From: Aigarchaeota archaeon
GTDB lineage: Archaea; Thermoproteota; Nitrososphaeria_A; Caldarchaeales; Wolframiiraptoraceae
DNA length: 55,045 nt
Assembly (NCBI GenBank): GCA_025058515.1
Contig: JANXDW010000014.1
Location: 1-55,045 of the forward strand
Direction: 5' to 3'
In this document: positions 17,342-55,045 of the stretch, piece by piece
How the letters are laid out: each line of letters begins with the position of its first letter
Position numbering within the stretch: the stretch's first letter is position 1
Made by a program: the position numbers and the translations under genes
Notes under the pieces: generated by a model
Seen by the model: only the letters and a program-made list of their open reading frames with translations
Told to the model about the DNA's origin: nothing
The model's database searches: none

Positions 17342-18094
17342 ATGTTTATTAATAACCTTGAAGATTATAACAGTGTCATGAATTTGTTGAGCTTAAAAGA
17401 GAAATTGTTGATATTTCTAGCTCAAAGTGGAACCTATGCAAGAAGTTTAAGTATCTCTACTTCAGCTATTGCTCATCATCTTGGAACTTCTCAACAATCA
17501 GTGTCCAGAATACTTATACAGTTAGAGCAGAATGGGTATATTGAGAAGGTAGTAGTAGGAAAGACTACTTTAATAAGATTAACAGATAAGGGGCTTGATG
17601 AACTTAGAAATCTATATATAGTATTGAAGAATATACTTGAGAAGCCTATGGAGATTATTTTAGAGGGAAGAGTGTTTTCAGGATTAGGTGAAGGCTTCTA
17701 TTACATCAGTCTCCCACAATATTTTGAGCAGATCAAAGAACGGGTAGGCTTCACACCTTATCTTGGAACTCTGAATATACAGCTACTATCTAAAGACTCT
17801 ATAGAAAACCGTATGCTCCTTGAGAAAAATGCAGACATAATTATAAATGGATTCAGTAATGGTCAGAGAACATATGGTAGTGCAAGATGCATCAAGGCAT
17901 TATTCAATGGAGAACAGGAAGCAGCAATAATCTTTGCTGAGAGAACTCATTATGGAAAAGATGTCGTTGAGGTTATTGCTCCAGTTTATCTTCGAGGGAA
18001 GTATAATCTTAGAGATGGTGATAAAGTCTTTGTAAAAGTAATCTTAAAAACATCTTCTCATAATGATAAGGTATTGGCTGCTGAGGTTAAGTAA
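17342..18094 (+). CDS. rbkR: CTP-dependent riboflavin kinase with N-terminal HTH (RbkR type)
   Basis: A 250-residue fusion. Residues 14-90 form a winged helix (LSLKEKLLIFLAQ, AIAHHLGTSQQSVSRILIQLEQNGYI, then a wing TTLIRLTDKG). Residues 100-240 form the archaeal riboflavin kinase domain with ILEGRVFSGLGEGFYYISL, FTPYLGTLNIQL and RTHYGKDVVEVIAPVYLRGKYNLRDGDKV. The kinase makes FMN from riboflavin using CTP. In several archaea this fusion is both enzyme and regulator of riboflavin genes. It overlaps the convergent FAD synthetase gene by 8 bases, so FMN and FAD synthesis are encoded side by side. Confidence 0.92.
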   Translation: MFINNLEDYNSVMNLLSLKEKLLIFLAQSGTYARSLSISTSAIAHHLGTSQQSVSRILIQLEQNGYIEKVVVGKTTLIRLTDKGLDELRNLYIVLKNILEKPMEIILEGRVFSGLGEGFYYISLPQYFEQIKERVGFTPYLGTLNIQLLSKDSIENRMLLEKNADIIINGFSNGQRTYGSARCIKALFNGEQEAAIIFAERTHYGKDVVEVIAPVYLRGKYNLRDGDKVFVKVILKTSSHNDKVLAAEVK

Positions 18095-18548
18095 GATCAT
18101 ATCTTCCTAACATCTTCTTTACCTTATTTATGATATCTGTAGTACTGTTTATATTTCCAATCTTGTAGTGTCTAGCTCTATAGATCTTTATCTTCATCTT
18201 CTTCTTCTCTAGGAATTTTTTAAATTCCTTCATTAAGTCTTCTTGATCGTATCCGAAGACGATGATATCTGGTTTAACCTTTTTTAATACTTTTTCAAAT
18301 GAAAACTTCTTATAACCTACGATGACCTCATCTACTGGTTTAAGATTAGACATTATAAATCTTCTAGATTTCTCGTTGAATAAAGATTCTCTATTCTTTC
18401 TCTTCTTGATAGTTTCATCTGTAGCGAGTACGACCACTAGCTTCGAGTTTTTTCCACCTATCTTCTTAGCTTCCCAGAGCATCTTAATATGACCTGGATG
18501 AATGATATCGAACGCTCCTGAAGTAAGTACTACTTTCTTCTTCCCCAT
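18087..18548 (-). CDS. ribL: FAD synthetase (FMN adenylyltransferase, RibL)
   Basis: A 153-residue nucleotidyltransferase of the archaeal RibL type. The ATP-binding signature SGAFDIIHPGHIKML lies at the start, followed by VVVLATDETIKKRKNRESLF and the C-terminal NSTTDIINKVKKML, the counterpart of the ISST-R motif. It transfers AMP from ATP to FMN. It is encoded tail to tail with the riboflavin kinase. Its product is the cofactor of the two exported FAD enzymes at 28.7-32.6 kb, and FAD is the donor used by ApbE. Confidence 0.92.
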   Translation of the reverse strand: MGKKKVVLTSGAFDIIHPGHIKMLWEAKKIGGKNSKLVVVLATDETIKKRKNRESLFNEKSRRFIMSNLKPVDEVIVGYKKFSFEKVLKKVKPDIIVFGYDQEDLMKEFKKFLEKKKMKIKIYRARHYKIGNINSTTDIINKVKKMLGRYDLT

Positions 18549-28675: not shown

Positions 28676-30445
28676 TTAGCCACGTACTGCATTCTTCCCT
28701 GCGAGGTATCCGAAGGTTACAGCTCTACTATGGCTGAGACCTGGGATTACAACAAGGGAATAGTACTGTGCATAGAAACTTCCAGCAGCATTTCCCGCAG
28801 CATATAGTCCTGGGATAGGCTTGCCTTCTTTATCTAGTACTTGTAGTTTATTATTTACTTTTAATCCTCCGCCGACCATGTTCAATAGTACTGCAATAGC
28901 TTGAATAGCGTAGAATGGTGGTTTTTCAACGGGCACCATGTATCTAGATGGTTTACCATAATCTTCATCAACACCTTTCTTACATAACTCATTGTACCTC
29001 TCAACCGTTTTCTTGAAGGTCTCTACAGGTACCTCCATCTTTCTCGCAAGTTCTTCTATTGTATTAGCTGTTACCGCTGCTTTATTCTGTAATGAGCCTT
29101 CGAGAAACTCTCTACCAAGAGCTGGGTCGGTTATTCTTCGATAGCCGCCTCCATGTTTAGTAACTTGTTCTTCCCAAGTAGAATCTAGTACAGCCCAGTA
29201 CATAGCTTTAGGTTGTTGTAGAACTCGATTAATAGCCCACATCCAGGGTAGAGCTTCATTTGTGAAACGCTCTCCTAAGATGTTTACGAATAAGAATGGA
29301 TTGCATATCAGCATGTATCCTTTGCCAGGACCGAAGCCTGCTAGAGAACTTATAGCGAATCCTAAATCACCTCCAGTCATTATGTAGCATAGTGGGCAGT
29401 GCGGTGGTTCATCTAATGCAGCACCTATCCACAATCCCATTAACTGTCCATCCCCAGTATTTGTTGGAGTGATCATTGGGTAGATCACTCTATTAGGCAT
29501 ATCAACTAGTCTTGCAACTTCAGGTGGAGCCCAAAGTTTTAAGAGATCTTTGTTTGATGAATAATCACCTGTACAGAGGATTACTGCTTTATTCGCATTG
29601 AACTTTATGTATCTACCGTTGACATCTTGTGCGATAACTCCTGTAACTCTACCAGCTTTCACTCGGATAAGTTGAACAGCTGTTGTATTGTAATAGAATT
29701 TAGCTCCTTTATCTTTAGCTATCTTCTCCAGTAGTGGTGCAAGCTGAGCTACACCATCAAAATCTGTTTCATCACTAAATTTGTATGTTGGTCTAGGCCA
29801 ATCTTTCCATGCATCTTCAAGATATGTCTTTGGTTTAAGTACTTGAGCTGGGATCCCATTAGCCCGTGCAAGGTCAGCAATAAAATCTGCAATTTTTGAA
29901 GAATTAGCCAACCATAATCTAACAAGAGATTCATCAACCTTATTCCCTGATATTATATCAACCTGTTCTCGGACAGCCTTCTCGTAATCTACAGTGATCC
30001 CTGCTTCTTTAAAGAGCTTGCCAGCTGGTCCAGGATTAATGTGTGCTCCTCTAACATTAGGACCTTTATACTTCTCTATAACGACTGTTACAGCCTTCTC
30101 CTCAGCTGCTGAATATGCAGCCATCAATCCAGCTAGTCCAGCACCTACGATTACAACATCAGCAGTAATTGTTTCAGCTATCTTTTCATCTGGTATTGGC
30201 GGTGGAGGAGTGAGTATCCCAGGCTCAGCTGTAACCGTTGTTGTAGTAGTTGATATTTGAGTTATAGTTGTTGGCTTAGTTAAAGTTGTTGTCTCAGTCT
30301 TTGTCTCAGTAATTTTTATCTCTCTTGGAAATGCTTGACTTCCAATTATTCCACCAACAACTAGTCCTGCGACACCTGCAGCAGTTGCAGACAAGAAAAC
30401 TCTACGAGAAACACTAGCTTTCTTCTCAGAAGCTTCTCCGCTCAT
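28676..30445 (-). CDS. Tat-exported FAD-dependent reductase (fumarate-reductase superfamily), copy A
   Basis: A 589-residue flavoprotein. A canonical Tat signal (SVSRRVFLSATAAGVAGLVVGG) is followed by a Thr-rich spacer and a proline run (LTPPPPIP). The FAD-binding fold starts at about residue 90 with DVVIVGAGLAGLMAAYSA, and the C-terminal FAD segment is PIPGLYAAGNAAGSFYAQYY. The fumarate-specific HG-x-NRLGG segment of flavocytochrome c is replaced by AGSFYAQYYSLVVIPGLSH, so fumarate is not the likely substrate. There is no heme motif and no FMN domain. It carries a CPLC motif near the middle. Electrons probably come from the flavinylated cytochrome encoded at 32723. Confidence 0.85.
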   Translation of the reverse strand: MSGEASEKKASVSRRVFLSATAAGVAGLVVGGIIGSQAFPREIKITETKTETTTLTKPTTITQISTTTTTVTAEPGILTPPPPIPDEKIAETITADVVIVGAGLAGLMAAYSAAEEKAVTVVIEKYKGPNVRGAHINPGPAGKLFKEAGITVDYEKAVREQVDIISGNKVDESLVRLWLANSSKIADFIADLARANGIPAQVLKPKTYLEDAWKDWPRPTYKFSDETDFDGVAQLAPLLEKIAKDKGAKFYYNTTAVQLIRVKAGRVTGVIAQDVNGRYIKFNANKAVILCTGDYSSNKDLLKLWAPPEVARLVDMPNRVIYPMITPTNTGDGQLMGLWIGAALDEPPHCPLCYIMTGGDLGFAISSLAGFGPGKGYMLICNPFLFVNILGERFTNEALPWMWAINRVLQQPKAMYWAVLDSTWEEQVTKHGGGYRRITDPALGREFLEGSLQNKAAVTANTIEELARKMEVPVETFKKTVERYNELCKKGVDEDYGKPSRYMVPVEKPPFYAIQAIAVLLNMVGGGLKVNNKLQVLDKEGKPIPGLYAAGNAAGSFYAQYYSLVVIPGLSHSRAVTFGYLAGKNAVRG

Positions 30446-30818
30446 GTATTTTTATTGTTTCATGTTTAATTTAAGATTTGTGATATATAATGTTCTTATC
30501 TCAAAGGTAAATAATGTAAATACATGTTAAAGATAAGATTTCTTTCTAATAAGGTTGATTCCATACGGGCCCCTTAGAATTAATACAACTTTGAAAATAA
30601 AGACATTATCTATATAATATTTGTTGATAGAATACAAAATAACTTCCACTATATGGTCATCTTATTGATAGTTAATAGAATTGAATTTTTTAGATGATCT
30701 CTAATAACATTTTAGAAAAATTGAGTTGCTTCTCTAACATTAGTGGTGTTGAGAATGTTTATGAAAAATTTTAAACTGATCTAGACGATTACGTATTTAA
30801 AAATGTATGTGGGAAAGT
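30446..30818. other. Spacer between the two FAD-reductase genes
   Basis: A 373-base AT-rich gap with no coding frame. It holds the promoter of copy A: on the minus strand a TATA-like element AAATCTTAAATT (30468-30479) centred about 28 bases before its ATG, plus an upstream ATTATATATC. No terminator hairpin stands out after copy B. Confidence 0.4.
30468..30479 (-). promoter_or_regulatory. TATA-like promoter element of FAD reductase A
   Basis: AAATCTTAAATT on the minus strand, centred 28 bases before the ATG at 30445. The identical 12-mer lies at the same distance before reductase B (32612-32623). This fits a shared leaderless promoter kept after duplication. Confidence 0.45.
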
Positions 30819-32588
30819 TTATGTTACCACTAGTTTCTCTTTTGCAGCGTTTTTCCCTGCTATGTATCCTGTAGTCCATGCCATGCTATGGCTTAGCCCT
30901 GGACATACAAGTGGATAATCAAGTCCGAATCTTCTCCCAACGAGGTTTCCAGTAACGTATAGGCCGGGTATTATTTTTCCATCTTTATCTACGGGTTGTA
31001 AGTTTTCATTTACGATCAGCCCACCCATGGTGACTAAAAATGCTGCTTGTGGAGGATTCCAATTTGCATAGAAAGGCTTCGTATCAACTGGGAATAAATA
31101 ATCAGATCTCTTACCAAAATCTTCATCAACACCTTTCTTACACAATTCATTATATCTTTCAACAGTCTTCTTGAATACTTCAATATCTAATTCTGGCGTA
31201 ACTTTTTTCATCTTCTCAGCAAGTTCTTCAATAGTATTGGCTTCAATTATCTGTCCATTTTCTATCTTCTGCTGAAACTCTTTTAATGTTACTTCATCTG
31301 CTTTCCAGATTCTAAAGAATCCTGGACCTAGATTGTATGTATATTTCGGCCAGTTAGAGTCAAATAAGACCCATATCCCTCCAATTCTCATACATTGTAT
31401 TGGGAATGCTAGAACATTTGAGATGAGGTCTTCGTTAGCAAACCTTTTACCATACTTATTTATCATTAGGAATGGTGCTGTCCCCATTCCATGCCATGCA
31501 TGAACCATTGCACAATGAGGTCTAGGCTCAATTTGTGCACCTATCCAATAAGCCATTAGATGACCGTCACCTGTAGGTGTAGGCATTCCAAAAATGTTCC
31601 TTAAATCTGGGAGCTTAGCAAATTCTTCTGGTAGAAAGTATTCAACCATCGCTCTATTGCCACCATAATCTCCAGTTGAAAGTATTATACTTCTTCTAGC
31701 TTTGAATCTTACATATTTTCCATCTTTTGTTTGAGCTATTACAGCTTTAACTCTACCGTTATCAGGTCTTTCAAGTCTTACTGCTTTTGTCTCATATCTT
31801 ATGTCTACCCCAAGACTTAACGCTCTCTTCTCTAAAATAGAGAGTAAGAGACCTTGATTCGCAGTTGGAGTATCTCCAAATCTATGACATGTTGGATATT
31901 CTATGTATGTTTGTTTTCTATAATCCCACCCAGGTGGAGCTTGGCTAGGAGGCCATTTATCAATCACGAAAGTATATTTATCGGTTCTATCTGGGATGAT
32001 GAGCCAAGCTTTCACTCCTTCTTTTTCACACATATCTATCAGCCAATCCATTACCTTACCAGAATTGTAAGCCCATAATCTGATTATCCTCTCATCAGCT
32101 CTATAACCAGAGATCTCCATTAATTTTTTAATAACTTCTTCAGGATCAATATAGATACCTAGCCGTTTATGTATCTTACTGTTTAAAGCTGTATTGTCAC
32201 CTCCACGTGCAGAGAAAGTAGCTTCCCGTTCAATCAAAACTACGCTTACTCCTTCTTCAGCAGCTGCAACAGCTGCTGCTAATCCTGATGTACCAGCACC
32301 AACTATTACTAGATCGTACTCTAAGGTTTGTGTTATCTGTTCTTCTGGAATAGGTGGTGGAGGGGTTAGGAAGGTTGGCTCAACTGGTACAGTTGTTGTA
32401 ACTGTAGATACTTGAGTTAGAGTAGTAGATTTAACTATAGTCGTTGTTTCAGTCTTTGTCTCGGTTGTTTTAATCTCTCTTGGGAAAGCTTGACTTCCAA
32501 GTATTCCCCCTATAATTAAACCAATTACACCAGAAGAGATAGATGCAACGACACTCCTTCTACTAACCTTACTATCATTTTTTACCAT
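30819..32588 (-). CDS. Tat-exported FAD-dependent reductase, copy B
   Basis: Also 589 residues, a tandem paralogue of the gene at 28676. The Tat signal is SKVSRRSVVASISSGVIGLIIGG, less canonical (SRRSVV) than copy A, followed by the same Thr-rich spacer and LTPPPPIPEE. The FAD fold begins YDLVIVGAGTSGLAAAVAAAEEGVSVVLIER; the C-terminal FAD loop is IPGLYVTGNLVGRRFGLDYPLVCPGLSHSMAWTTGYIAG. Shared words (RYNELCKKGVDED, GSQAFPREIK) show recent common origin, but the substrate-side residues differ, so substrates may differ. The gene is divergent from the cytochrome/FMN protein at 32723. Confidence 0.85.
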   Translation of the reverse strand: MVKNDSKVSRRSVVASISSGVIGLIIGGILGSQAFPREIKTTETKTETTTIVKSTTLTQVSTVTTTVPVEPTFLTPPPPIPEEQITQTLEYDLVIVGAGTSGLAAAVAAAEEGVSVVLIEREATFSARGGDNTALNSKIHKRLGIYIDPEEVIKKLMEISGYRADERIIRLWAYNSGKVMDWLIDMCEKEGVKAWLIIPDRTDKYTFVIDKWPPSQAPPGWDYRKQTYIEYPTCHRFGDTPTANQGLLLSILEKRALSLGVDIRYETKAVRLERPDNGRVKAVIAQTKDGKYVRFKARRSIILSTGDYGGNRAMVEYFLPEEFAKLPDLRNIFGMPTPTGDGHLMAYWIGAQIEPRPHCAMVHAWHGMGTAPFLMINKYGKRFANEDLISNVLAFPIQCMRIGGIWVLFDSNWPKYTYNLGPGFFRIWKADEVTLKEFQQKIENGQIIEANTIEELAEKMKKVTPELDIEVFKKTVERYNELCKKGVDEDFGKRSDYLFPVDTKPFYANWNPPQAAFLVTMGGLIVNENLQPVDKDGKIIPGLYVTGNLVGRRFGLDYPLVCPGLSHSMAWTTGYIAGKNAAKEKLVVT

Positions 32589-32611
32589 GATTTATATCAT
32601 CCAATACATTC

Positions 32612-32623
32612 AATTTAAGATTT
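32612..32623 (-). promoter_or_regulatory. TATA-like promoter element of FAD reductase B
   Basis: The 12-mer AAATCTTAAATT on the minus strand, centred 29 bases before the ATG at 32588, matches the element before copy A base for base, while the flanking sequence differs. Confidence 0.45.
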
Positions 32624-32722
32624 ATGTAAATCAAGTAGATATTTTCTATATTTTATAGTGTTAGGCTGTAAAAATCCTTTATACTTAAAGATGATAAGAC
32701 TTATATTTTAAACCTTTTTACT

Positions 32723-34186
32723 ATGTCTTTGATGTCTGCTAACGATATTATCACTAGATGGAGCATACTTGATAGAATTTCACATTTCATGAATCTACTA
32801 GGTGTGTTGATAGCTATAGTCTCAGGTCTTCCTCAACTAAATCTTATAATTTTCGGCTTTGATCTAGGAGGACAGTTTAGATGGATAACAGATTTTATTG
32901 GTGGAGAAGGAATACGACGGATACTACATCGATATATTGTTACAGGTTTAATAGGATCGGCTTTCACACTCCATGTTCTCAGCTTTGGCTTAAGAAAGCA
33001 AAAGTCTCACATAATCTTTACATGGAAAGACCTGAAAGATCTAATAGCATATTATGAGCATAAATTCTTTAAAAAATCTAAACCATCTCTCGGTTTTCAT
33101 GTACCTGGGGAGAAGCTTCTCTACTGGATTGCATTAGTATGTTTATTTTTGCTAGGTTTAACGGGGATAATGATGTGGATGAGATCAATGTTTATAGAAT
33201 ACAACTTACTTAGACTATTACATAGAATTGCTTTCATCATCTTATCAGTATTTGTCTTATTACATTTTATACTAAACATAGTTTTACCAGAACAACTTAC
33301 AGCTCTAAAAGCAATGTTCATACATGGAAAAGTATCCAGAGAATGGATTAAACAACATCATCCAAAAACCTTTGAAGAAGAACAAGTTATATCAATAAGT
33401 AGGCGTAGAACACTAAAACTATTTCTGTGGATTATCCCTGCAGCAGGGTTATCTTACCTTTTCTCAGAATTGCTACAAAAACCTCAATATAAGATTGGAG
33501 AAATAATAGTGGAGCCAGCAAAAGTTATGGCAGGTAAGCCATTTACAATTTTTGTTGAAGTAACAAATACGGGATATAGAGAAGATGCTTTTTCAATTCA
33601 ACTATTCATAGATGGAGAATTCGTAGCTGAGAGAAAGGTTACTCTATTAGATGGAGAAACAAGGTTACTAAATTTCAAAGCAACCTTAAATGATAAAGGT
33701 CAACATATAATAGAAGTCAATGGAATCTCTAAATTAATCGAAGTAGTAGAGGCACCTCCACCTATTGAGAAAGAGATAGCAGAGAAGTTTAAAAAACTAC
33801 TTGCAGAAGCATATGATTTTATCCCTGTTATAAAGGATGGGAAGATAGCATATTATGAAATATACGATGATGGTGGTATGCTAATAGCATATGGTTTCTA
33901 TGAAAGAGTTTATGCTCCTACTGATAGGCTTACCGTGACAGGGATAATCGACCTAAACTACAAAATTAAGATGATAGATATAGAGAAATTGAAGCCAGAT
34001 ATACATGTTCTTAACGAGAAAATACTTGAGCCTGAATTTGAAAACCAGTTCATAGGGTTGATGATCGAGGAAGTAAAACTATCTCCTGAGGGGAAGATAG
34101 ATGCAGTTTCAGGTGCAACTATATCATCTTCACAGATAGTTGAAACAATTAGGAAAGTCCTCGGAGAGATTCAATCATCTTCATAA
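32723..34186 (+). CDS. Cytochrome b - CARDB-like - FMN-binding fusion protein (flavinylated electron carrier)
   Basis: A 487-residue protein with, in order: a four-helix b-type cytochrome like formate dehydrogenase gamma (residues 1-190; candidate heme ligands H21, H69, H84, H167, H181); a cytoplasmic linker; a twin-arginine segment SRRRTLKLFL (226-235) leading into a fifth helix; a CARDB-like beta domain (260-342); and an FMN-binding domain (350-485). That domain has the flavinylation motif DAVSGATISS, with T466 as the predicted FMN-phosphothreonine. It probably takes electrons from quinol in the membrane and passes them through the heme and FMN to the exported FAD reductases. ApbE, which attaches FMN, is encoded convergently with a 16-base overlap. 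Confidence 0.85.
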   Translation: MSLMSANDIITRWSILDRISHFMNLLGVLIAIVSGLPQLNLIIFGFDLGGQFRWITDFIGGEGIRRILHRYIVTGLIGSAFTLHVLSFGLRKQKSHIIFTWKDLKDLIAYYEHKFFKKSKPSLGFHVPGEKLLYWIALVCLFLLGLTGIMMWMRSMFIEYNLLRLLHRIAFIILSVFVLLHFILNIVLPEQLTALKAMFIHGKVSREWIKQHHPKTFEEEQVISISRRRTLKLFLWIIPAAGLSYLFSELLQKPQYKIGEIIVEPAKVMAGKPFTIFVEVTNTGYREDAFSIQLFIDGEFVAERKVTLLDGETRLLNFKATLNDKGQHIIEVNGISKLIEVVEAPPPIEKEIAEKFKKLLAEAYDFIPVIKDGKIAYYEIYDDGGMLIAYGFYERVYAPTDRLTVTGIIDLNYKIKMIDIEKLKPDIHVLNEKILEPEFENQFIGLMIEEVKLSPEGKIDAVSGATISSSQIVETIRKVLGEIQSSS

Positions 34187-35076
34187 ACTTGAAAATTCTT
34201 AGTCTTTAATATCTCTTTTTCATCTGTAATTATCATTGCTTCTCCTTCTCCTAAATCTTCAATTAACTGAATACCTTCAGCTGGATCCATGGCACATAAA
34301 CCAGTAGCTAGAGCATCTGCTACTAAGGCTTTGTTTGTAATTATAGTTGCACTAACTACTTGGCTACTCGATAACTTCTTTAGACGAGGATTCAAAATAT
34401 GGGGAAAAATTCCTTTACCTATCCTTCGTTCATAACCACCACTTGAGGCAATAGAACAATTAAATATCTTTAATCTAGAGATACTTTTATCTTTCTCAAA
34501 TGGATTTCTGATCGCTATTCTCCAAGATTCTTTATCTGTTCTTCCACCTATAGCTCTTATATCTCCTCCTGCATTTATCAACGCATGGTTGACTCTCTGT
34601 TTTACTAAATACTCTGACACCAAGTCGACCGCATATCCTTTAGCTATACTATTCAAAACTATCTTCATACCTTTCTTTAGAAATTTTATGTTTTCTCCAC
34701 GTATTTCAATAGATGAATAGTCAACTAAATCGAGAATACTACTCAATTCTTCTTCATCTAAATAATCGCTCTTTTTATCAACATACTCTAATAGTGGAAG
34801 TATGGATACATCGTACGCTCCTCTAGTTATTTTGCTAATCCTTATAGCTTCTCTTAAGACAGATATTAACTCCTTGCTTGCAGATTCTAGAAATCCTTGT
34901 TTATTTAATCTACTAACCTCGCTGTTATCATCATATATACTCATGATACTCTCTATGCGTTTAAATTCACTAAATGCTTCATCCATCAATCTTCTAACAT
35001 AATCTATGTTATCATGAATTATGGTTATTGAAACAACTGTGCCCATCAAGAACATAGACTTCTTAATAGTAAACAT
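34171..35076 (-). CDS. apbE: FAD:protein FMN transferase ApbE
   Basis: A 301-residue ApbE. Motifs are FLMGTVVSITI at the N-terminus, NSIAKGYAVDLVSEYL, NAGGDIRAIGG and VADALATGLCAMD near the end. It transfers FMN from FAD to the Thr of the SGAT motif in target proteins, and the target is encoded next door. No signal peptide or lipobox precedes the catalytic domain, and a stop codon lies six codons upstream of the ATG, so this ApbE should act in the cytoplasm. That is unlike the usual exported bacterial form. Confidence 0.93.
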   Translation of the reverse strand: MFTIKKSMFLMGTVVSITIIHDNIDYVRRLMDEAFSEFKRIESIMSIYDDNSEVSRLNKQGFLESASKELISVLREAIRISKITRGAYDVSILPLLEYVDKKSDYLDEEELSSILDLVDYSSIEIRGENIKFLKKGMKIVLNSIAKGYAVDLVSEYLVKQRVNHALINAGGDIRAIGGRTDKESWRIAIRNPFEKDKSISRLKIFNCSIASSGGYERRIGKGIFPHILNPRLKKLSSSQVVSATIITNKALVADALATGLCAMDPAEGIQLIEDLGEGEAMIITDEKEILKTKNFQVYEDD

Positions 35077-35236: not shown

Positions 35237-35578
35237 ATGGTCTTTATGAAGTATAGAGAGAGCAAAGCAGTTAGGAGGTTTATTAGAAAGATAACGGTCG
35301 AGAACCTCTGGATGTATATACTGAGTTTATTGAAGGAAGAACCAATATATGGTTATGAGATAAGAGATAAGATCTTCAAAAAGTTTAACTTTAAACCAGG
35401 TAAGATAACATGTTATGTCGTACTTTATAAGCTTGAGAAAGAAGGTCTCATCTCATCTAAAGAAATATATGAGAAGAGTAAAGGCGCACCTCGAAGATAC
35501 TACGTAATCACTGATAAAGGTTTAAAAGAACTTGAGAAAGCAAAGAAATTCTTAAAAGTGATTTTAAGCTCTATCTAA
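35237..35578 (+). CDS. PadR family transcription regulator
   Basis: A 113-residue winged-helix protein of the PadR type: MYILSLLKEEPIYGYEIRDKIFKKF, then KITCYVVLYKLEKEGLISSKE and the wing GAPRRYYVITDKGLKELEKAKKFL. PadR proteins are repressors that respond to small molecules. It lies upstream of and divergent to apbE, so it is a candidate regulator of the flavin electron-transfer locus. ATG starts exist at 35237 and 35246. Confidence 0.88.
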   Translation: MVFMKYRESKAVRRFIRKITVENLWMYILSLLKEEPIYGYEIRDKIFKKFNFKPGKITCYVVLYKLEKEGLISSKEIYEKSKGAPRRYYVITDKGLKELEKAKKFLKVILSSI

Positions 35579-53160: not shown

Positions 53161-53820
53161 ATGGCACTTGACCAATTTAGCTTCTTGAAGAGATTACCTA
53201 AAAAGACAGGGGTATTCGGTTACGTATTAGCAGACTCAGAGAACATAATAAGGACTGTAGTTGAAGAAGTAGTTCCAGAAGAAGAGAGAGAAGAAGCAAT
53301 TAGAGAATACGGTATCGGTAAACCATTAAAGATTGTGAGAAATGGGGAGACCCACTATATTCTTCAAGTAGTTAAGAATAATTTTCTAGTACGTTACTTG
53401 GTTGAATGGGGTAGGATGGCTTCACTATGGCCTACCCATCTAACAACTGCTTGCTGTAGTGTAGAGTTTGGAGCTGTATCTAGTTCAAGATATGATCCTG
53501 AACGTTTCGGCTGGATACCTGCAACGGGTACTCTTAGACAGTCAGATGTACTATTGATAGAAGGTACCGTATGTTCTAAGATGGCTCAGAGGGTTCGGAT
53601 GATCTACGACCAGATGCCTAGCCCAAAGTGGGTTATAGCTATGGGGGCATGCGCTATCTCTGGAGGACTCTACGCAAAAGACTCTTACAATGTTCTTCAA
53701 GGGATAAGCGATATAATCCCTGTTGATGTCTACGTACCTGGATGTCCTCCTAGACCTGAAACATTATTTCAAGGATTACTACTCTTGAGAGATAAGATTC
53801 TAAAATCGAGGTTAGAGTAA
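53161..53820 (+). CDS. nuoB: NADH/ferredoxin-quinone oxidoreductase subunit B
   Basis: A 219-residue NuoB (PSST). It carries the N2 cluster ligands in TACCSVEFGA, EGTVCSKMAQR and the later MGACAISGG and VPGCPPRPE segments. The N-terminal 70 residues (VEEVVPEEEREEAIREYG) are an extension before the canonical VEWGRMASLWPTHL. It passes electrons to the quinone. nuoC follows after one base. No nuoA lies upstream, where a rhomboid gene is found instead. Confidence 0.95.
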   Translation: MALDQFSFLKRLPKKTGVFGYVLADSENIIRTVVEEVVPEEEREEAIREYGIGKPLKIVRNGETHYILQVVKNNFLVRYLVEWGRMASLWPTHLTTACCSVEFGAVSSSRYDPERFGWIPATGTLRQSDVLLIEGTVCSKMAQRVRMIYDQMPSPKWVIAMGACAISGGLYAKDSYNVLQGISDIIPVDVYVPGCPPRPETLFQGLLLLRDKILKSRLE

Positions 53821-53821
53821 G

Positions 53822-54316
53822 ATGACTTGGGAGAAGCTTAAACAAGTTATAGATGATTTAAAAGAGAAGTTTAAGGATAGTATTGAAGGAGAAGTATATG
53901 TTGAGAGAAAGATAGGGAAAGTAATTTTAAGACGTGATTCTCTAATAGAGGTTGCTAGATATCTTCGAGATGTACATGGGTTCGACCAGGTTAAAGGTGT
54001 TACAGGTGTAGACCTTGTGAAATTGAAGGAAGGTGGAGGACCATTCATAGAGGTAATCTATCATCTTGGATCTCTAGATTCACCTGAACTCATCGATACG
54101 ATACTGAACATCTCGGTGAGGTTGGATAGAGAAAACCCTAGGATCAGCTCTCTATATACGGTTTGGCCTAGCGTAGAGTATCATGAGAGAGAAGTATACG
54201 AGATGTTTGGCGTGATCTTTGAAGGTCATCCAAATCTCAAGAGACTATTACTTCCAGAGTACTGGATGGATATACCTCCTCTTAGAAAAGATTACAAGAT
54301 CCCAGGACGTGATTAG
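53822..54316 (+). CDS. nuoC: NADH/ferredoxin-quinone oxidoreductase subunit C
   Basis: A 164-residue NuoC. The C-terminal signature is YHEREVYEMFGVIFEGHPNLKRLLLPEYW followed by PPLRKDYKIPG. The first part is VEVARYLRDVHGFDQVKGVTGVD. It sits in the peripheral arm beside B and D. The next gene, nuoD, starts two bases after the stop, so the genes form an operon. Confidence 0.95.
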   Translation: MTWEKLKQVIDDLKEKFKDSIEGEVYVERKIGKVILRRDSLIEVARYLRDVHGFDQVKGVTGVDLVKLKEGGGPFIEVIYHLGSLDSPELIDTILNISVRLDRENPRISSLYTVWPSVEYHEREVYEMFGVIFEGHPNLKRLLLPEYWMDIPPLRKDYKIPGRD

Positions 54317-54318
54317 CC

Positions 54319-55045
54319 ATGGTGTTAGAAGAGAAGAAGATTGTTGAAGTATTTGATACAGGTGGTCCGAGGCTTACGTTTAGTTATGGTCCTCAACATC
54401 CTGGAACAGGTCATTTTAGAATGATCGTAACTGTTAGTGGTGATACTGTTGTAGACCTTGAGCCTGACCCAGGTTTCGTTCATAGAGGTGAGGAGAAGAT
54501 GGCTGAGTACAAGACTTGGATAACGAACATACCTCATCTCGAGAGACCATCGATACTTGATGCAGTACACATGGTTCTCCCATACTGTATAGCAGTGGAG
54601 AAGTTGATGGAGGTTGATCCTCCTGAGAGAGCTAAATATCTTAGAACTATTGTAGCTGAATTAGATCGTATTGCAAGCCATCTCTACTGGTTCTCACTTT
54701 ACGGTGTCTTCCTAGGTCATACAACCATGTTTCTATGGTGTGTGAGTGATAGAGAGTATATACTGGATATTGCTCAATTGATAACTGGGCAGAGGTTTAC
54801 CCATGCATACCCTGTCCCTGGAGGTGTGAGGAATGATGCTCCGAAACAAGTTCCAAGAGAACTTGTTAAAGAGTTTAAGCTATATTATTCTAGAGTTCTT
54901 GGGAGAGAGCCTAAGCCAGATGAAGTGAGTGAAGATTTTAAGAAGTATGTTTACGCTGTAACAGAGTTGATGGATCTAAGACTTAACCACTATTACCAGA
55001 TGTTCTTTGATAGTGAGATATTTCTAGAGAGGACGAGAGGTATCG
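54319..55045 (+). CDS. nuoD: NADH/ferredoxin-quinone oxidoreductase subunit D (runs off the window)
   Basis: The first 242 residues of NuoD are visible from ATG 54319. The signature GPQHPGTGHFRMIV is followed by DPGFVHRGEEKMAEYKTWITNIPHLERPSILD. RIASHLYWFSLYGVFLGHTTMFLWC and ITGQRFTHAYPVPGGVRNDAP follow, both typical of the 49-kDa subunit that holds the quinone site. The end lies outside the window. It is the third gene of nuoBCD. Confidence 0.95.
   Translation, partial: MVLEEKKIVEVFDTGGPRLTFSYGPQHPGTGHFRMIVTVSGDTVVDLEPDPGFVHRGEEKMAEYKTWITNIPHLERPSILDAVHMVLPYCIAVEKLMEVDPPERAKYLRTIVAELDRIASHLYWFSLYGVFLGHTTMFLWCVSDREYILDIAQLITGQRFTHAYPVPGGVRNDAPKQVPRELVKEFKLYYSRVLGREPKPDEVSEDFKKYVYAVTELMDLRLNHYYQMFFDSEIFLERTRGI

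Follow-up and report, generated by a model that had tools for sequence, protein, structure and literature searches.

How does an archaeon load a flavin onto a carrier domain that is expected outside the cell, if the enzyme for the attachment carries no signal to leave it? This question is raised by a four-gene locus in a stretch of 55,045 nucleotides (contig JANXDW010000014.1 of assembly GCA_025058515.1), herein called the window. The host, represented by a draft assembly of 1.47 Mb, is a hot-spring archaeon of Candidatus (Ca.) Geocrenenecus (Wolframiiraptoraceae, Caldarchaeales, "Aigarchaeota"). Its closest named relatives are Ca. Geocrenenecus huangii (G104), Ca. G. dongiae (G064), and Ca. 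Terraquivivens tengchongensis (G025) (naming according to PMC9246946). The locus encodes Red1 (28,676–30,445, minus strand) and Red2 (30,819–32,588, minus strand), two proteins of the fumarate-reductase superfamily that bind flavin adenine dinucleotide (FAD); CybF (32,723–34,186, plus strand), a membrane cytochrome with a domain binding flavin mononucleotide (FMN); and ApbE (34,171–35,076, minus strand), an FAD:protein FMN transferase. All four open reading frames were found where a preliminary description of the window had placed them, and its domain calls are sound according to Pfam. The locus is probably a self-contained, transferable module for flavin-based extracytoplasmic electron transfer, in which CybF would be assembled by both the general secretory (Sec) and the twin-arginine translocation (Tat) machineries and electrons would flow outward to Red1 and Red2.

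Because the genes follow each other in the strand order minus, minus, plus, minus, they do not form a single operon. red2 and cybF diverge from an intergenic region of 134 bases (32,589–32,722), and this pair is also divergent in G104, G064, and G025. At their 3' ends, cybF and apbE share 16 bases (34,171–34,186) on opposite strands in a tail-to-tail arrangement, and this overlap is kept in G. huangii.

CybF consists of a five-transmembrane (TM) diheme cytochrome b of the FdnI type, a CARDB spacer domain, and an RnfG-like FMN-binding domain. The fusion of a cytochrome b with an FMN domain, as proposed in the preliminary description, is borne out by matches to Ni_hydr_CYTB, CARDB, and FMN_bind within one protein. 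Residues 12–199 form the Ni_hydr_CYTB/formate dehydrogenase gamma domain (PF01292, E 6e-14; TIGR01583, E 8e-21). In a profile alignment to E. coli FdnI (1kqf_C), His21, His69, His167, and His181 of CybF align with His18, His57, His155, and His169, which we take to be the heme ligands of FdnI; four TM helices thus carry the equivalent ligands. The CARDB domain (residues 260–332, 33,500–33,718, plus strand) matches its Pfam profile with E 2.5e-5. The FMN-binding domain (residues 353–485, 33,779–34,177, plus strand) matches FMN_bind (PF04205) over its cut-off with E 6e-5, and NCBIfam rnfG_Methano over most of the profile with E 1.2e-18, which lies below that profile's cut-off. Positive charges place the loops 91–131 and 188–232 inside; hence, the CARDB/FMN part is expected outside. 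Within the FMN_bind domain, the motif DAVSGAT satisfies the published ApbE target motif D-x-x-[S/T]-G-A-[S/T] (PMC12052999), and D460, G464, A465, and T466 are invariant among five aligned proteins. T466, the last residue of the motif and already proposed as the flavinylation site, is the predicted position of covalent FMN attachment. A Pfam search with CybF gave no match to the MsrQ-like, PepSY-like, or DUF4405 families. Only four relatives were returned by a scan of genome contigs, which is a weak gauge of how far the fusion occurs in other phyla, and plasmid records contained only partial FdnI-like matches.

The ApbE gene, likewise called in the preliminary description, encodes a complete enzyme. 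Its domain starts at residue 11 and covers positions 1–265 of the 266 positions of PF02424 (E 1e-67), and the GGD, PHI..P, and ADALAT motifs of the flavin and metal site align with those of Vibrio cholerae ApbE (6nxi). An export signal is absent: five of five checked proteins have no N-terminal hydrophobic stretch or TM helix, and the sixth (G033) begins directly at the domain, so that ApbE is signal-less in all six genomes. The stop-to-stop frames of apbE, with 306 amino acids in the window and 302 in G104, are too short to hold a signal, and no second ApbE was found in the host genome. Bacterial ApbE is typically exported and flavinylation outside the cell is the rule (PMC12052999); NosX is exported by Tat (PMC7660919). 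A cytosolic exception is the Klebsiella enzyme, which acts on a cytosolic reductase (PMC12052999). A signal-less ApbE is hard to reconcile with a target domain expected outside, unless the domain receives its flavin in the cytosol and is exported in its folded state. Flavinylation is therefore probably cytosolic, followed by Tat export of the FMN domain. Both the signal-less ApbE and a twin-arginine motif in CybF had been overlooked in the earlier reading, and both alter the assembly that is required.

The twin-arginine motif lies directly in front of TM5. Dual Sec-Tat proteins are recognized by RR directly before the last, weakly hydrophobic TM helix, a loop of at least eight residues, and positive charges after the helix (PMC5449189). 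All four CybF proteins show these features: RRR directly precedes TM5 (SRRRTLK in the window, TRRRMIK, GRRRVMK, and GRRRAIK in the others), TM5 is the least hydrophobic helix, the loop has about 40 residues, and 2–3 basic residues follow TM5. Of the dual Sec-Tat families that Tooke et al. describe, two have five helices, and one of these carries b-heme His residues (PMC5449189). The SRRRTLK motif (residues 226–232) and TM5 (residues 233–251) of CybF, at 33,398–33,475 on the plus strand, are thus a predicted Tat-dependent segment. In the genome AUK008 (G194), the homologous FMN domain stands alone as a protein of its own, which has a classical Tat signal (SRRNFLK) and is encoded next to a signal-less apbE. 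TatC is present in 20 of 22 genomes of the family, the host (G000) included, and the Rieske protein of the host starts with MISRRRHLRWF, a near-identical twin-arginine context. Taken together, we lean, if only slightly, toward a general route in the Wolframiiraptoraceae lineage, in which the carrier would be flavinylated inside by a signal-less ApbE and the finished FMN domain then exported by Tat, CybF being a dual Sec-Tat protein.

Two further loci may be described here. On host contig C33 (L080:1039–5113), an SdhABCD-like operon adjoins the gene of the Tat-signal Rieske protein. On AUK008 contig JAGGRY010000007.1 (L016:9373–16721), the signal-less ApbE, which lacks the His of PHI..P, and the Tat-signal FMN_bind protein are accompanied by an HdrB-like CCG protein, two more iron–sulfur (Fe-S) proteins, a Tat-signal ferredoxin-like protein, and a tungsten aldehyde oxidoreductase. 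This cluster may represent another flavin-linked membrane system of the family, distinct from the present one.

Red1 and Red2 are paralogues with 47% identity. Each carries a Tat signal (SVSRRVFLSA in Red1 and KVSRRSVVAS in Red2) and a Thr-rich stalk, and each matches FAD_binding_2 (E 4e-42 and 1e-43), the fold of the Fcc3/UrdA class. Both proteins match urocanate reductase, flavocytochrome c3, and vinyl phenol reductase best; ketosteroid and cyclohexanone dehydrogenases were also matched. The Red1 model (predicted template modeling score, pTM, 0.66) resembles urocanate reductase, Fcc3, and ketosteroid dehydrogenases, and the fold does not decide the substrate. In Fcc3/UrdA, carboxylate binding and proton donation are performed by Arg402/411, His504/520, and Arg544/560 (PMC7921117). 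According to the alignment, all of these are replaced in Red1 and Red2, and an assignment as fumarate or urocanate reductases was therefore rejected. An assignment as equivalogs of vinyl phenol reductase, the best NCBIfam profile, was rejected as well, since the score of about 180 bits stays below the cut-off of 600. Both also share a C-terminal signature, Y-x-L...PGLSHS, with a protein encoded on a plasmid of Subdoligranulum (35% identity).

In G. dongiae and Terraquivivens, the CybF/ApbE pair is found beside a different reductase with a full catalytic set (L034:2041–3687 and L035:6273–7874). The Arg, His, and Arg lie in the intact motifs ERRD, HHTMGG, and NRIGGN, and a Trp stands where fumarate reductases have His and urocanate reductases Tyr (alignments; residue roles from PMC7921117). 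Because these sister loci pair CybF and ApbE with a different enzyme, the enzyme slot is exchangeable, with CybF and ApbE as the constant core. Of the two Tat-exported FAD reductases named in the preliminary description, the Tat signals and the superfamily stand, whereas the term reductase is borrowed from the sister loci, the known catalytic residues being lost. Beside the intact reductase of G. dongiae, toward apbE, lies a decaying gene (L034:1343–1975) that retains 210 residues of a second fumarate reductase-like protein. In Terraquivivens (L015:15562–17367), the gene of a protein weakly matching PEPCK_ATP separates apbE from the gene of a second Tat-signal FAD protein, the latter representing a third type with an NYPGGGS signature.

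The four-gene set is linked in three related species: G. huangii, G. dongiae, and T. tengchongensis. That relatives would never show such linkage, the case named earlier as counting against the locus, is not what is seen. G. huangii has the genes in the identical order HAD-Red1-Red2-CybF-ApbE, with an inversion of those beyond ApbE, and the homologues are intact open frames with 69–88% identity. In the ApbE-negative congeners G128 and G152, HAD and PadR are direct neighbors with about 90–175 bases between them. The HAD/PadR site is also uninterrupted in G. dongiae, which carries the block on another contig. Judging by these gene orders, the block comprises exactly four genes and is gained or lost as a whole. 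No boundary repeats of a mobile element were found around it, and its GC content at third codon positions is slightly low (0.24–0.27 versus 0.27–0.36). PadR (35,237–35,578) was ruled out as a member, as it occurs without the block and travels with an inositol-phosphate synthase gene. Also ruled out are nuoBCD (53,161–55,044, ~18 kb from the block) and the riboflavin kinase/FAD synthetase pair (17,342–18,548, ~10 kb from the block). These had been described as suppliers of the locus; the genes exist, but they are distant housekeeping genes outside the moving block.

Within the phylum, a clear ApbE is present in six of 398 genomes, all of them Wolframiiraptoraceae, and six further weak matches occur in other families. 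FMN_bind is found in five of the 398, all ApbE-positive. In the sixth ApbE-positive genome (G033), apbE and a reductase gene are cut by the end of a 5.5-kb contig, and the cytochrome may be missing from the assembly only. Within the family, superfamily reductases with a Tat signal occur in five of the six ApbE-positive genomes but in none of the 16 ApbE-negative ones, which have at most SdhA-type copies; the Fisher p of 2e-4, like the other co-occurrence statistics, is inflated by shared ancestry. Among the best matches listed in a tblastn search of ApbE against plasmids, none was archaeal. In another family of the order, a gene for a Tat-signal FAD protein adjoins one for a cytochrome b-like membrane protein with an extra N-terminal domain (L098:59–2979 and L099:967–3908), a possible FMN-independent counterpart.

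The gene content, the domains, the ligand residues, the motif, the linkage, and the missing signal of ApbE are seen directly; for the function of the module, we infer the following export route, assembly order, direction, substrate, and quinone. ApbE, staying cytoplasmic, would attach FMN by a phosphoester to T466 of CybF. Helices 1–4 of CybF would be inserted via Sec, and the folded, flavinylated CARDB/FMN domain would be exported by Tat by means of RRR and the weakly hydrophobic helix 5. Red1 and Red2 would be exported by Tat in their FAD-loaded form and may remain tethered by an uncleaved anchor and the Thr-rich stalk. Electrons of the membrane pool, probably from a menaquinone-like quinol, would be taken up by the FdnI-type diheme cytochrome close to the cytoplasmic face, cross the two b hemes to the covalent FMN, and pass on to the FAD of Red1 or Red2, which would reduce a small organic acceptor outside the cell. 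A chain from quinol over heme b and FMN to FAD, as drawn in the preliminary description, is plausible and well supported, save for the points corrected here: the assembly route, the lost catalytic residues, and an uncertain quinol source.

Several observations weigh against this scheme. MqnA of the futalosine pathway is absent from all 22 genomes of the family, and MenD gave no match above the profile cut-off. The AlphaFold model of CybF (mean predicted local distance difference test, pLDDT, 61.5; pTM 0.40) is too poor to judge contacts between the domains. The pairing of Red1 and Red2 with CybF is given by gene linkage only, the co-occurrence statistics have the ancestry problem mentioned above, and the lost Arg and His residues of Red1 and Red2 count here as well. 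As to the quinone, its presence is argued from the existence of NuoBCD, an Sdh operon, and a Rieske protein in the host; NuoD, whose gene lies at the window end, has no hydrogenase Cys in the part seen. On host contig C46 (L079:6320–8463), a MenA-like UbiA prenyltransferase adjoins an AhbD-like radical SAM/SPASM protein, and the pair is also present, by coordinates, in G128 and G152. It is a candidate for quinone or heme synthesis in a lineage without MqnA or MenD. The profile of the heme b synthase AhbD itself had no match over the cut-off in the family.

Outward electron flow through an FdnI-type cytochrome costs proton-motive force, and for this reason the reverse direction remains a serious rival, albeit an unlikely one. 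Herein, Red1 and Red2 would be extracytoplasmic dehydrogenases, and electrons of an organic substrate would pass over FAD, FMN, and heme b to quinone, as in FdnGHI with formate. The absence of the reductase-type Arg/His/Arg, the ketosteroid and cyclohexanone dehydrogenases among the matched folds and sequences, and the cytochrome type, which is energy-conserving in that direction as a matter of general bioenergetics, all fit this direction. The reductases adjoining CybF/ApbE in G. dongiae and Terraquivivens do not, since their Fcc3/UrdA catalytic set is complete, and neither do the proteins that Red1 and Red2 match best, namely urocanate reductase, flavocytochrome c3, and vinyl phenol reductase. 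Outward flow is favored because of this reductase-type active site in the sister loci.

The assembly proposed for CybF can be questioned in a similar manner. RRR could be merely a positive-inside topology signal, its position being expected from topology alone, and flavinylation outside is the bacterial rule (PMC12052999). The FMN domain would then be exported by Sec and receive its flavin outside from an ApbE that, although signal-less itself, gets out of the cell, e.g. by riding a Tat partner. We regard this as quite unlikely, given six of six signal-less ApbE proteins, no second ApbE in the genome, and the classical Tat signal of the free-standing AUK008 domain, which indicates that relatives of the domain use Tat. 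CybF might also be an extracellular electron-transfer cytochrome for metals or shuttles, with Red1 and Red2 as mere neighbors having their own donor, as iron reduction is often served by flavinylated systems (PMC8238504). This is improbable, as reductase genes lie beside CybF, in divergent orientation, in every complete locus and are lacking in the ApbE-negative genomes of the family, and as the moving block contains no iron-transport gene. The fragmented second reductase of G. dongiae demonstrates that parts can decay; a decaying or chance assembly of unrelated flavoprotein genes is, however, very improbable in view of the intact frames in G. huangii, the invariant cofactor residues, and the block-wise presence and absence.

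What has been mapped of flavin-based extracytosolic electron transfer is almost entirely bacterial: after signal filtering, its components were reported in 15,095 bacterial and 63 archaeal genomes, and ApbE and FMN-domain genes without an export signal were discarded in that screen (PMC8238504). The present locus is a complete, transferable set in a thermophilic archaeon and exemplifies what such a screen misses. In the papers on this archaeal group that were searched for it, ApbE is not mentioned. The locus makes it possible to test in which compartment a flavin is attached if ApbE has no means of its own to exit the cell. If the attachment is cytosolic and followed by Tat export, the assembly order would be opposite to the bacterial rule, and cofactor loading would follow the logic of Rieske proteins and molybdoenzymes. 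The FdnI-type cytochrome-FMN fusion would constitute a new class of transmembrane flavin-linked electron-transfer protein. In addition, a hypothesis of anaerobic respiration is offered for Caldarchaeales, the family being known mainly via tungsten-dependent fermentation.

Systems combining ApbE, an FMN domain, and a fumarate reductase-like enzyme are already known, and what may be new here is the assembly route. With the bacterial systems (Meheust et al. 2021, PMC8238504; Listeria FrdA, Shewanella UrdA), the locus shares these three components, the enzyme being extracytoplasmic, and the feed from a membrane pool. In the best-known bacterial examples, reductase and FMN domain form one polypeptide and the gene of the donor lies elsewhere, whereas here the FMN domain belongs to the membrane cytochrome. 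The cytochromes known to be linked to flavinylation are MsrQ-like, PepSY-like, and DUF4405 proteins (Huang et al. 2024, PMC10979944), transmembrane b-heme proteins that likewise serve flavinylated domains; CybF differs by its FdnI/Ni_hydr_CYTB (PF01292) type, which is absent from this list, and neither PF01292 nor b561 is mentioned in the text of the 2021 survey (PMC8238504). PceC/RdhC and NosR are, like CybF, membrane electron-transfer proteins with an exocytoplasmic covalent FMN on Thr, predicted in the case of CybF. Their FMN domain is placed between helices 1 and 2 or N-terminally, they have no FdnI-type diheme core, and they are matured by ApbE-type proteins of which some are exported, whereas the ApbE of the cybF locus is signal-less. 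With FdnI (1kqf_C), CybF has in common the four-helix diheme core and the four aligned heme His; a fifth helix, CARDB, and the FMN domain replace the Fe-S partner subunit. The FMN domain matches the profile of Methanosarcina RnfG, whereas the single FMN_bind protein of the host does not stand in an Rnf setting. The closest parallel in assembly is provided by the dual Sec-Tat proteins (actinobacterial Rieske, Sco3746, polyferredoxin; Tooke et al. 2017, PMC5449189), which have five helices, RR before a weak last helix, and a C-terminal cofactor domain. CybF differs from these by its flavin cofactor, FMN and flavin being unmentioned in PMC5449189, and by its thermophilic, non-euryarchaeal host.

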